Origin: Kangiella aquimarina DSM 16071
Lineage (GTDB): Bacteria > Pseudomonadota > Gammaproteobacteria > Enterobacterales > Kangiellaceae
Direction: 5' to 3'
DNA length: 64,000 nt
Assembly (NCBI RefSeq): GCF_000374105.1
Contig: NZ_KB893650.1
Location: 490,862 to 554,861, forward strand
Below the pieces are notes generated by a model. That model was not told the origin of the DNA, did no database searches, and worked only from the letters and a program-made list of their open reading frames with translations. Both the position numbers and the translations under genes were made by a program. Below are positions 1,300 to 64,000 of the stretch, one piece after another; position 1 is the first letter of the stretch; every line of letters starts with the position of its first letter.

Positions 1300-2556
1300 T
1301 TACAGTTTCACCTTGGCAACTTTTATGACGCCATTGGCATCGTATTCCCGATCGAACACGCAGTAATAGTCGCTCATTAGTGGCAAACCCATAATCGACA
1401 TATCAGGCCAGTTTTTTAATTGATCCATGATCATGAAATAAGCTCGGCCATGTTCCAGTGCATTAATCTGCCAATAATTATCAGGGGTACAGCTCATTCG
1501 GATTTTCTCGCCATAGGGGCTAAGGAAATAAAAGTGAATGTCAGGCCATTGAGCTAAGTCCAGATCAGTCGGGAAGTAGCCTTTGCCAGCCTGATTGGCA
1601 TTCTGGAATCGCTCAATATGACGAATGAAGCTGACATCCAGGTCTATCAGGTCATCCATTAGTTCCTGGTAAAGATAACGCTGTAATACTAAGAAACTGG
1701 AGCCACAGTCAATGATGCTGTTGGAGCGGCCCTTGCTGCGATAATTGTTTTGAATTGGTGGTGCGGCAATTTCACGGCCATTACCAACCTGCATCGAAAT
1801 TAACTTGGTGTTGTAATAACTGTCGTGCACCACATCAATCGTTTCGAGGTTGCCATGGTAGAGTTCGCGATGAACTTCCCCGGCACCCAGAATCAGCAGC
1901 CCCTGATTTAATGGGTCGGCATGTAGATGTTCATCGGTATAAGTCGGATCGGCAACATGCACGATGGAACGCTTGGTATACAGGGCAAATTTATTTTTAC
2001 TGATTTTTTGTTCTTCGAGCTGGGTGAAGAATGCTTTGGGATAAAGTCCCGGGTATTGTTTTAACTGCTTACGAAATTGACGGATACCCTGTTTACTAGA
2101 TTCAACCTCAAACGGCCAGGGATAGGTGTGTGCCGGCTCGTGATTTCTCTCTGTGAAATAGTCTGTCAGGTCATGGGCGCGATTAAGTTCGCGATAGCCA
2201 AGCCCGAGAATGCCATCAGCCCCATAAAAATTATCCTGTTGTTCGGTCTTAATTACCGCAATATGAGTGTCCTTGAGGAGCATACGTTTATTGTCATGTT
2301 CAAGCGACAAGTGAGTTTTAACGATTGGGCCTGCCCAACCACCGGCACCATAAGTGAGCGCCTGCGCCAGCGGCGTTGGCTTAAGATAATAGTCATTGGC
2401 GTGGTTATAAGCTTTGGTTTCTACGGCAATGGTACTGCTGCCTGTATCCAGTAAAAGATGGGCGACTTCCTGATTGCAACCAATTTGAATAGGGGCGCAG
2501 TAGCCGCCTTTGGCTGGCACAATGGTGATGGGCAGTTTCATCGTATCCTTGGGCAT
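1300..2556 (-). CDS. Pepsin-family (A1) aspartic protease, bacterial type
   Basis: A 418-residue protein with both catalytic motifs of pepsin-like proteases: LLLDTGSST (Asp37) and IIDCGSSFLVL (Asp283), plus the flap tyrosine in TYGAGGWAG (Tyr69) and the conserved GADGILGLGY. Bilobal A1 proteases are mostly eukaryotic; a small bacterial set (shewasin-like, known from Shewanella and relatives) lacks signal peptide and propeptide, as here, where the catalytic lobe begins almost at residue 1. That predicts a cytoplasmic, non-zymogen enzyme, which is inference. The start is supported by AAGGA seven to eight bases upstream of the ATG. It is the second gene in the minus direction after the DUF2165 gene, separated by a terminator-like hairpin. 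Confidence 0.88.
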   Translation of the reverse strand: MPKDTMKLPITIVPAKGGYCAPIQIGCNQEVAHLLLDTGSSTIAVETKAYNHANDYYLKPTPLAQALTYGAGGWAGPIVKTHLSLEHDNKRMLLKDTHIAVIKTEQQDNFYGADGILGLGYRELNRAHDLTDYFTERNHEPAHTYPWPFEVESSKQGIRQFRKQLKQYPGLYPKAFFTQLEEQKISKNKFALYTKRSIVHVADPTYTDEHLHADPLNQGLLILGAGEVHRELYHGNLETIDVVHDSYYNTKLISMQVGNGREIAAPPIQNNYRSKGRSNSIIDCGSSFLVLQRYLYQELMDDLIDLDVSFIRHIERFQNANQAGKGYFPTDLDLAQWPDIHFYFLSPYGEKIRMSCTPDNYWQINALEHGRAYFMIMDQLKNWPDMSIMGLPLMSDYYCVFDREYDANGVIKVAKVKL

Positions 2557-62734: not shown

Positions 62735-63535
62735 ATGGCTGAATCAAAAGGTGAATTTATCGCCGTTAGTACGGGTATGAATTTAGGGGGGCAAATCTCT
62801 GTAATAGCTAAGGACTACATTCAAAAAGCAGATGTAGTTTATGCCTTAATGCCTCATACATTGGCTGAACGATGGTTAGAAAGGTTAAATCCTAACTTAA
62901 AAAGCCTACAACCCTTTTACGGAGTGGGTAAATATCGCATGCAATCATACGAAGAAATGATTGAGGTGATGATGGATGAAGTTAGAGAGGGTAAGAAAGT
63001 ATGTGGGGCATTTTATGGTCATGCTGGAGTATTTGCCTGTGTGCCACGATTAACAATAGATAAAGCCCGTAAAGAAGGTTTTCGCGCTCTAATGGAACCA
63101 GGTATTTCTGCAGAAGCCTGTTTATACGCCGATATTGGTATTGATCCCGGAGTTCATGGCATTCAGGGTTATGAAGCTTCCCAATTTTTATTCTACAATC
63201 AATCAATTAACAACGCTGCCTATGCAATTATGTGGCAAATTGGCATAGTAGGAGAGCATACGGCTACGCAATTTGAAACCAAGCCAGAGTGGGTTGAGGT
63301 TTTTGTTGAGCGATTGAAAGAGTGGTATCCGTTATCTCATGAAGTCATTCTTTACGAAGCCGCGGTACTTCCTATTGAGGAGCCGAGAATAGAGCGTCTA
63401 CAACTAAAAGATTTGCCACAAGCGGAAATGTCTACTAAAAGCACGCTGGTTATCCCACCAGCTAGAGCTCTCGAATTGAATATCGAAGTTCTGGAAAAAA
63501 TGGGATTGAAACCAGAAGATATTGCTCACGGGTAG
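62735..63535 (+). CDS. Borosin alpha-N-methyltransferase (split, SonM-like)
   Basis: A 266-residue protein of the tetrapyrrole methylase superfamily. Motifs shared with fungal borosin OphMA and bacterial SonM: FYGHAGVFACVPR (near residue 94), MEPGISAEACLYADIGIDP, YEASQFLFYNQS, MWQIGIVGEH and the C-terminal TLVIPPARALELNIEVLEKM. These enzymes methylate backbone amide nitrogens of a ribosomal peptide with S-adenosylmethionine. Unlike fungal OphMA the precursor is not fused; it is the next gene. No porphyrin or cobalamin genes are near, which argues against a corrin methylase role. AGGA lies ten bases before the ATG. Confidence 0.9.
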   Translation: MAESKGEFIAVSTGMNLGGQISVIAKDYIQKADVVYALMPHTLAERWLERLNPNLKSLQPFYGVGKYRMQSYEEMIEVMMDEVREGKKVCGAFYGHAGVFACVPRLTIDKARKEGFRALMEPGISAEACLYADIGIDPGVHGIQGYEASQFLFYNQSINNAAYAIMWQIGIVGEHTATQFETKPEWVEVFVERLKEWYPLSHEVILYEAAVLPIEEPRIERLQLKDLPQAEMSTKSTLVIPPARALELNIEVLEKMGLKPEDIAHG

Positions 63536-63539
63536 TGAG

Positions 63540-63568
63540 TTGGAAGTTGGTAAAAAATACTGTATAAA
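63540..63568 (+). promoter_or_regulatory. Predicted own promoter of the borosin precursor
   Basis: TTGGAA (63540-63545), 17-base spacer, TATAAA (63563-63568), with a leader of about 30 bases. It would allow the precursor to be made in excess over the methyltransferase. Confidence 0.55.
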
Positions 63569-63604
63569 CAGTAGCTTATTATTTTAATAAAGAGGGAGTT
63601 CACT

Positions 63605-63826
63605 ATGTCGAAGCAAAAACTAGAAGAGTTCATCATTCAATTGAGCGAGGACTCAGAGTTAAAACAGTCTTATATTGAAAATCCAATGGCGGTTATGCAG
63701 AAGATTGGCTTAGAAGAACAAGAAATAAAGGCTATTATGTCAGGAGATAAAAGACAGATATCAGCAATGCTTGGGCAGGATGCTGAGTTGATTGTTACAG
63801 GAATAATACACTTAGTTAAAAAGTAA
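63605..63826 (+). CDS. Borosin precursor peptide (SonA-like) with borosin-binding domain
   Basis: A 73-residue protein with a strong ribosome site (GAGGGAG six bases before the ATG). Residues 1-58 form a small helical domain with YIENPMAVMQKIGLEEQEI and IMSGDKRQI, matching the borosin-binding domain of split-borosin precursors (also similar to LigA-like domains). The C-terminal tail LIVTGIIHLVKK is hydrophobic and lacks charged residues up to the final KK; this is the probable core. In SonA of Shewanella oneidensis backbone methylation falls in the mid-60s of a similar-length chain, equivalent to about Ile63-Thr65 here. The exact residues are inference. Confidence 0.85.
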   Translation: MSKQKLEEFIIQLSEDSELKQSYIENPMAVMQKIGLEEQEIKAIMSGDKRQISAMLGQDAELIVTGIIHLVKK

Positions 63827-63865
63827 AATATTTATAATATAGTTTAAATAACGTACAGTTAAGCA

Positions 63866-63893
63866 AGCTGTGTGCTAAGCTAAGCATACAGCT
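63866..63893 (+). other. Stem-loop after the borosin precursor gene
   Basis: AGCTGTGTGCT and AGCATACAGCT pair over 11 bp (one G-U) around loop AAGCTA. No T run follows, so it may protect the 3' end of the precursor mRNA or act as a weak attenuator before the next gene. Confidence 0.55.
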
Positions 63894-63937
63894 CGTTACT
63901 AGGAAATTATAGATAAGGATGTTGGGACTCGTACTGA

Positions 63938-64000
63938 ATGAAGGCTTTAATAAAAAAATCATGCATTACATTGGCGCTACTATTCTTTGCGTCAGTAGCT
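63938..64000 (+). CDS. Start of an exported protein, cut by the window end
   Basis: ATG at 63938 opens a frame that runs to the window edge, encoding a typical signal peptide: two basic residues, then a hydrophobic run (TLALLFFASVA). Only 21 residues are visible, so the product is unknown. The distance from the precursor gene (111 bases, same strand) makes it a possible borosin-cluster member. Ribosome site poor; a second frame from ATG 63919 is also open but has no spaced ribosome site. Confidence 0.5.
   Translation, partial: MKALIKKSCITLALLFFASVA

Follow-up and report, generated by a model that had tools for sequence, protein, structure and literature searches.

The window, a 64,000-nt stretch of DNA corresponding to positions 490862-554861 on contig C1 of a 2.68 Mb Kangiella genome, carries near its right-hand end a gene at 62735-63535 (+ strand) for a putative split-borosin alpha-N-methyltransferase (MT) of 266 aa. 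The MT matched PF00590 (9.1e-15), and in phmmer comparisons with solved structures its best match was SonM (7ltc, E 9.9e-93), with fungal borosin chains matched at E 1e-42 to 9e-37. Residues Y62, R68, Y72, and Y94 of the MT correspond to Y58, R67, Y71, and Y93 of SonM, and they are invariant in 13/13 aligned sequences. These four SonM residues are described in the text of PMC8429565 as active-site residues that were mutated and assigned roles. The motifs quoted in the original prediction, which had called this ORF a relative of OphMA and SonM, are present, and the SonM match upholds the family call. A closer match to a cobalamin or sirohaem methylase was also looked for, and a tetrapyrrole methylase identity was rejected: the cobalamin equivalog model TIGR01465 scored 14.5 bits on the window MT against a cut-off of 259.65, and the YabN model scored 27.3 against a cut-off of 525.

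A separate ORF at 63605-63826 (+) encodes the putative borosin precursor of 73 aa, which matched SonA (8t1s_B, E 9.9e-10) over residues 6-65 and is made up of a borosin-binding domain (approximately residues 1-59) and a core or tail (approximately residues 60-73, ELIVTGIIHLVKK). A split borosin with a discrete precursor had been predicted from the sequence, and both ORFs and the tail were found as described. Type IV split borosins are defined in the text of PMC8429565 by separate enzyme and precursor genes, as found here. The window pair also shows SonM homology that includes the equivalents of Y58, R67, Y71, and Y93 and a SonA-homologous borosin-binding domain, with the LigA Pfam model PF07746 reaching 21.2 bits on the precursor, under its cut-off of 25.3. 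By homology, the enzyme-precursor pair is a further member of the known type IV split borosins, and by analogy with SonM/SonA the window precursor is probably backbone methylated by the adjoining enzyme. The window precursor had dN/dS values of 0.004-0.052 in 9/10 orthologue pairs, the tenth pair being saturated, and for the enzyme, precursor, and TPRb (see below) dN/dS was 0.004 to 0.069 wherever dS was computable (20/22 orthologue pairs), ratios that show purifying selection on these three genes.

The window locus resembles SonM/SonA of Shewanella oneidensis, as presented in the text of PMC8429565, in having a separate enzyme with equivalents of the mutated active-site tyrosines and arginine, and a precursor of about 70 aa with a borosin-binding domain and a hydrophobic C-terminal core. 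It differs in its core, which has a KK end, and in the two TPR-only proteins that follow, whereas nearly all of the fetched Shewanella loci have one or more TPR-GGDEF ORFs. The OphMA-type fungal borosins share the homologous methyltransferase domain (approximately 1e-42 to 1e-36), but their core is fused to the enzyme, whereas that of the window is separate.

The two TPR-only proteins are of an exported type. The gene for TPRa (354 aa, + strand) begins at 63938 and runs past the end of the window at 64000 to position 65002 in window numbering (L003 1800-2864), and that for TPRb (368 aa) lies beyond the window at 65012-66118 (L003 2874-3980). Both have an N-terminal hydrophobic segment (residues 3-28 of TPRa and 14-30 of TPRb) and a C-x29-C pair, and both have TPR families as their only Pfam matches over cut-off, with neither a GGDEF nor another output domain found among these matches; a GGDEF domain is present in a protein encoded at the host's second borosin locus (L004 908-2737). 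The ORF from 63938 had been taken for a signal-peptide gene following the precursor; it was confirmed and is TPRa, the first of the tandem pair. To the right of the window, TPRa and TPRb are followed by MutH and a NUDIX protein.

The 69-nt spacer between the enzyme and precursor genes contains a conserved element at 63540-63573 (+), in which a TTGGAA-17-TATAAA promoter-like pair and the near-palindrome TACTGTATAAACAGTA (63558-63573) overlap. Across five sequences (the window and four orthologues), the columns of the spacer were on average 85% identical in spite of a synonymous divergence of approximately 0.5-2.9, or saturation, in the flanking genes, and therefore the spacer may be regulatory. 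The near-palindrome is operator-like, its central part is identical in 4/5 sequences, and a scan of the host genome with this 16-mer found one further place within 2 mismatches, so that it is almost unique. A promoter of the precursor's own had been predicted at this spot, and the TTGGAA-17-TATAAA pair was indeed found at 63540-63568, but a consensus sigma-70-like promoter scan of the region did not call it and returned 2 sites against a shuffle mean of 3.4, nothing above chance. The gap between the precursor and TPRa genes holds a conserved hairpin at 63866-63893 (+). The stretch 63824-63935 around it folded better than shuffled sequences (z -2.58; 4/200 shuffles as good), and 98.2% of 55 cells were paired in the five sequences, with 1 pair changed on both sides; co-variation was weak (71-96 of 500 shuffles as high). 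A 3′ stem-loop had been predicted here and does exist, without a T run and with little co-variation, and it is a possible attenuator or RNA-stability element. Separate control of the precursor, enzyme, and TPR genes would fit a conserved spacer and hairpin. As to the differential expression that the original prediction proposed, the retention of spacer and hairpin among five close sequences favours it, but only indirectly.

Backbone N-methylated peptides had been called rare in bacteria, a statement at odds with the prevalence of the enzyme: searches of 99 genomes, the host included, found 94 borosin MT places in 54 of them, among these 20/20 Kangiella genomes, and a species-level collection yielded at least 581 stretches encoding a borosin enzyme. 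The host genome itself has three borosin enzymes, that of the window and two at C1:42-45 kb, where two GNAT acetyltransferases and a TPR-GGDEF protein are encoded alongside candidate precursors of 82 and 67 aa. The named loci taken from the species-level collection were the 80 best of at least 581 and are uninformative on distant borosins, and their precursor candidates were assigned from position and a weak profile, with 10/80 loci having none over 25 bits.

The linkage of borosin enzymes to TPR genes was evaluated with a profile built from the TPR proteins of the first loci, counting as TPR-family any ORF that scored over 30 bits and lay within 5 kb. Such an ORF was found beside 172/175 borosin enzyme ORFs in the fetched loci (11 of the 175 are counted twice). 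By set, the values were 46/47 for Kangiella and four other loci, 81/81 for the 80 best named loci of at least 581, and 45/47 for other relatives; the first two are partly circular, since the first set supplied the training sequences of the profile and 11 of the second set's enzyme ORFs belong to genomes already counted in the first, and the third is not circular. Two of the three unlinked enzymes (L039 and L181) end at a contig edge, and the third (L172) is a real exception. As a distance control among ORFs of at least 330 aa, 195/520 within 3.5 kb of an enzyme were TPR-family, compared to 4/280 farther away.

The reverse search gave the same picture. With TPRb as the query at E 1e-8 in 61 genomes, 54 matches were found, of which 49 lay within 5 kb of an enzyme, and matches occurred in 29/41 enzyme-bearing genomes compared to 0/20 genomes lacking the enzyme. 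With a TPR-GGDEF query at E 1e-60 in all 99 genomes, 31/31 matches lay within 5 kb of an enzyme. These two stringent queries reach 51/94 enzymes, a number to be read in view of the more distant TPR domains that escape them and of the TPRb search covering 61/99 genomes. Judged from gene neighbourhoods, these counts show that the linkage of enzyme, precursor, and TPR genes is conserved. The gene order varies by clade, being enzyme-precursor-TPR at the window and mostly precursor-enzyme-TPR in the other clade.

The five TPRb matches away from enzymes were all at gcvP sites, in four genomes. The borosin genes of the window lie after gcvP, and this arrangement, with 1 to 4 TPR genes, recurs in 16/20 Kangiella genomes. 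In the other four (G012, G010, G017, and G004; loci L155, L156, L157, and L158, respectively), one or more TPR genes lie directly 3′ of gcvP, and neither a borosin enzyme nor a precursor ORF is present at the gcvP site. It follows that a TPR protein must be of some use without a local peptide, and these four loci are candidate receptor-only sites. The four genomes do not form one group on a gcvP tree; therefore, in our reading, loss of the enzyme-precursor pair, or failure to gain it, happened on more than one occasion, and the TPR genes stayed. A separate observation at a gcvP site is that of L038 (G003:C168), where a tandem pair of borosin enzymes and two precursors, which resemble the two gcvP-site types of Kangiella (one apiece), lie beside gcvP and TPR genes.

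Most of the linked TPR ORFs encode an output domain. GGDEF was found in 29/46, 72/81, and 18/45 of them in the three locus sets, in the order given above, and among 26 non-GGDEF TPR ORFs from more distant relatives, HisKA was matched by 21, HATPase_c by 21, and a receiver domain by 4. Using a simple hydropathy rule, we called a hydrophobic segment at the N terminus of 115/126 TPR-GGDEF ORFs and after the TPR part in 123/126 (some genomes count twice), and in long non-GGDEF TPR ORFs segments were called both before and after the TPR part (25/25 and 25/25). Hydrophobic segments that flank the TPR part in this way suggest a periplasmic sensor with a cytoplasmic output domain.

In an alignment of 68 of the 94 listed TPR domains, the only invariant columns were two cysteines with a spacing of 28, 29, or 34 residues, as a disulfide in the periplasm would predict. 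A motif search found this pair in 54/58 TPR-only, 111/126 TPR-GGDEF, and 4/25 long non-GGDEF ORFs; several of the 15/126 TPR-GGDEF ORFs in which it was missed have a wider spacing.

Rap and NprR, of the RRNPP family, are cytoplasmic receptors of Gram-positive bacteria. The fold was compared using an AlphaFold model (pLDDT 93.6) of the L075 orthologue of TPRb, which is 97% identical to it. Foldseek ranked LGN first, followed by the Rap and NprR peptide-pheromone receptors (4gyo, E 4.7e-7, TM 0.61), and the TPR profile, when compared to solved sequences, matched RapF and NprR after designed TPRs and LGN. The linked TPR proteins are like RRNPP receptors in their TPR superhelix, in sequence and fold matches among which LGN ranks higher, and in the small peptide gene that adjoins them. 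They differ in being of an exported type or membrane-anchored, in belonging to Gram-negative bacteria, and in having a probably backbone-methylated peptide as their neighbour. TPRa and TPRb, with export-type segments and TPR-only Pfam matches, do not show the cytoplasmic location and the DNA-binding or phosphatase part by which an RRNPP receptor is recognized; they may work like such a receptor, yet they are not classed as one.

The co-variation of precursor tails with their neighbours was evaluated on precursor-enzyme-TPR triplets for 94/108 precursors; the other 14 were set aside for want of an enzyme or TPR gene within 1.6 kb. The 11 named loci that repeat Kangiella genomes were left out, and two small ORFs (L071 and L072:5840) were removed by hand. 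In partial Mantel tests (n=94), the tail followed the TPR part given the enzyme (r 0.616, p 0.002) and did not follow the enzyme given the TPR part (r -0.021, p 0.8), and the precursor leader followed the enzyme (0.351). The tail-TPR term was positive in every subset, ranging from 0.396 to 0.744, whereas the tail co-varied with the enzyme in only one, the Kangiella gcvP site, which is the class of the window (n=16); here the tail followed both the enzyme (0.426, p 0.002) and the TPR part (0.513). When the sensor protein's own GGDEF part was added as a covariate, the tail-TPR link was kept in short precursors (0.648), but it was gone in long precursors (0.098, p 0.096), in which the tail followed the GGDEF part (0.444). 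Therefore, the tail-TPR co-variation may reflect linkage to the whole sensor gene. In our reading, the tail appears to track the evolution of the sensor gene more closely than that of the enzyme, on Mantel p-values that ignore phylogeny and do not single out the TPR part alone.

We regard it as reasonably probable, from the gene linkage and co-variation taken with known SonM/SonA biology, that the window encodes a type IV split borosin and that its peptide serves as the ligand for the co-encoded TPR proteins of the sensor type. By this model, the 266-aa enzyme would bind the 73-aa precursor by its helical leader and N-methylate backbone amides in the hydrophobic tail of the precursor, by analogy with SonM and SonA; the tail would then be released and reach the cell envelope or the medium, where the two exported TPR proteins of the adjoining genes would bind it. 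In relatives, the homologous TPR domain would be held at the inner membrane and continue into a GGDEF or histidine-kinase domain on the cytoplasmic side, and the general scheme would run from an N-methylated peptide through a periplasmic TPR sensor to a c-di-GMP or phosphorelay output. The two TPR proteins at this locus, having lost or never possessed an output domain, would serve as soluble binding partners, decoys, or co-receptors, with the TPR-GGDEF sensor of the host located at its second borosin locus. What counts against a sensor role is that TPR domains bind many things, that LGN outranks the pheromone receptors in the structural comparison, and that TPRa and TPRb are without an output domain. 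The same holds for the TPR genes that have no enzyme or precursor ORF at four gcvP sites, the tail-enzyme link within the Kangiella gcvP-site class, the loss of the tail-TPR link in long precursors under the GGDEF covariate, and the ORFs in which the motif search missed the cysteine pair. More tentatively, the split borosins of this branch may be self-made signals read by a periplasmic, disulfide-bearing TPR receptor with a c-di-GMP or phosphorelay output, which would make them a Gram-negative counterpart of Rap and NprR. If so, N-methylation would render a small hydrophobic peptide stable and able to pass membranes, and the receptor-only gcvP sites would be comparable to LuxR solos.

RiPP clusters often carry immunity genes, and the N-methylated peptide might instead be bioactive (antimicrobial or membrane-active), with the exported TPR proteins serving immunity or sequestration and the GGDEF and kinase versions regulating production by self-sensing. 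The TPR-only proteins of the window, without an output domain, would suit such a role, and orphan immunity genes could account for the lone TPR genes at four gcvP sites. We consider this explanation unlikely, however, since GGDEF or kinase outputs on most of the linked TPR ORFs exceed what immunity needs and an enzyme present in every Kangiella genome would be unusual for a patchy antibiotic trait. Alternatively, the TPR sensors could perceive something else, such as a misfolded envelope protein, a cell-wall fragment, or another peptide, and do no more than control how much borosin is made. The generic binding ability of TPR domains, the TPR genes that exist without an enzyme and precursor, and the mixed outcome of the co-variation controls all speak for this possibility, which we nevertheless judge to be distinctly unlikely: it leaves aside the co-variation of the tail with the TPR part in every subset, and with the enzyme in one only, and the location of all stringent TPR-GGDEF matches beside borosin genes. 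That the MT is a tetrapyrrole-type (cobalamin or sirohaem) methylase adjoined by chance by an unrelated small gene is highly improbable, being refuted, despite the PF00590 family common to both, by the matches to SonM and its SonA-like partner, by a cobalamin equivalog score far under cut-off, and by a gene linkage kept in relatives.

According to the text of PMC8429565, no type IV pathway had been tied to a final natural product, and therefore the function of split borosins was open in 2021. The main text of that paper contains neither 'TPR' nor 'GGDEF'. A GGDEF label stands in PMC11395268, confined to a legend on borosin cluster types. In the literature searched, a borosin-tetratricopeptide link was not found, and the terms borosin and histidine kinase co-occurred only in unrelated passages; Imani 2022, Lee 2024, and Cho 2022 lay outside its scope, and the link may be in print. 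The coupling to a TPR sensor is thus a functional reading not found in the literature searched, although a GGDEF label is already in a cluster legend. With TPR proteins that have c-di-GMP or kinase outputs as a near-constant neighbour, the question can be tested directly on defined partners, namely one peptide, one receptor, and one measurable second messenger. Should the peptides be signals, backbone N-methylation would be simply explained by resistance to proteases and passage through membranes, and a peptide communication system of a kind that none of the papers searched describes would exist in many Gram-negative bacteria, among them Shewanella.

A candidate for processing of the precursor was also considered. 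An A1 pepsin-family aspartic protease of 418 aa is encoded at 1300-2556 (-) of the window (PF00026, 1.9e-15, 57.5 bits against a cut-off of 19.9), approximately 60 kb from the borosin genes. Its best solved match is BACE-1, and its two motifs are DTGSS and DCGSS, where the A1 family expects two D-[T/S]-G. An ORF matching a pepsin profile lay within 5 kb of 11 enzyme ORFs at 10 loci (L072, L121, L159, L160, L162, L164, L166, L178, L184, and L201), three of which helped to build that profile. Among Kangiella, the pepsin homologue was found in 12/12 genomes that have a TPR-GGDEF match at E 1e-60, compared to 0/8 of those that lack one, but the tree needs one change to explain this co-occurrence, which therefore is not independent evidence; the physical linkage of pepsin and borosin genes in other genera is better evidence. 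In a family search of 41 genomes, the 14 control genomes gave no match. PF00026 at E 1e-5 found none in the eight of these Kangiella genomes, one of which is just 55% complete, that keep a borosin at the gcvP site, which weakened the candidacy of the pepsin homologue as the processor of the window precursor. It more likely serves the second borosin locus of the host. Lee et al. (2024) reportedly found a borosin precursor to be cleaved by shewasin A. The window protease is like the shewasins in being an A1-type bacterial pepsin homologue, a kind found near borosin enzymes, and differs in its distance from the borosin genes and its DCGSS second motif. According to the text of PMC4814920, the Shewanella homologue shewasin D builds up chiefly in the cytoplasm.

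Several precursors elsewhere are of other types. Candidates with repeated cores were found at L072:5840-6274 (-), with HKALIITPKAQAS-like units, at L121:8862-9302 (+), with HKAFFFANDGQEFTMSAEVENS-like units, and in the host genome at L004:5034-5237 (-), with a doubled KLLLLEP/KLLLLTP, and these are possible multi-core borosin precursors. The PRE2-type precursors, a second Kangiella class (e.g., L004:2682-2930 (-)), have N-x6-PAED ahead of a long acidic tail and adjoin a TPR-GGDEF gene and often a GNAT. GNAT acetyltransferases were encoded near 18/47, 15/81, and 13/47 of the enzyme ORFs in the three locus sets (e.g., L004, L042, L102, and L144) and might provide a second tailoring step; in L144, the enzyme and the GNAT seemingly form one ORF.
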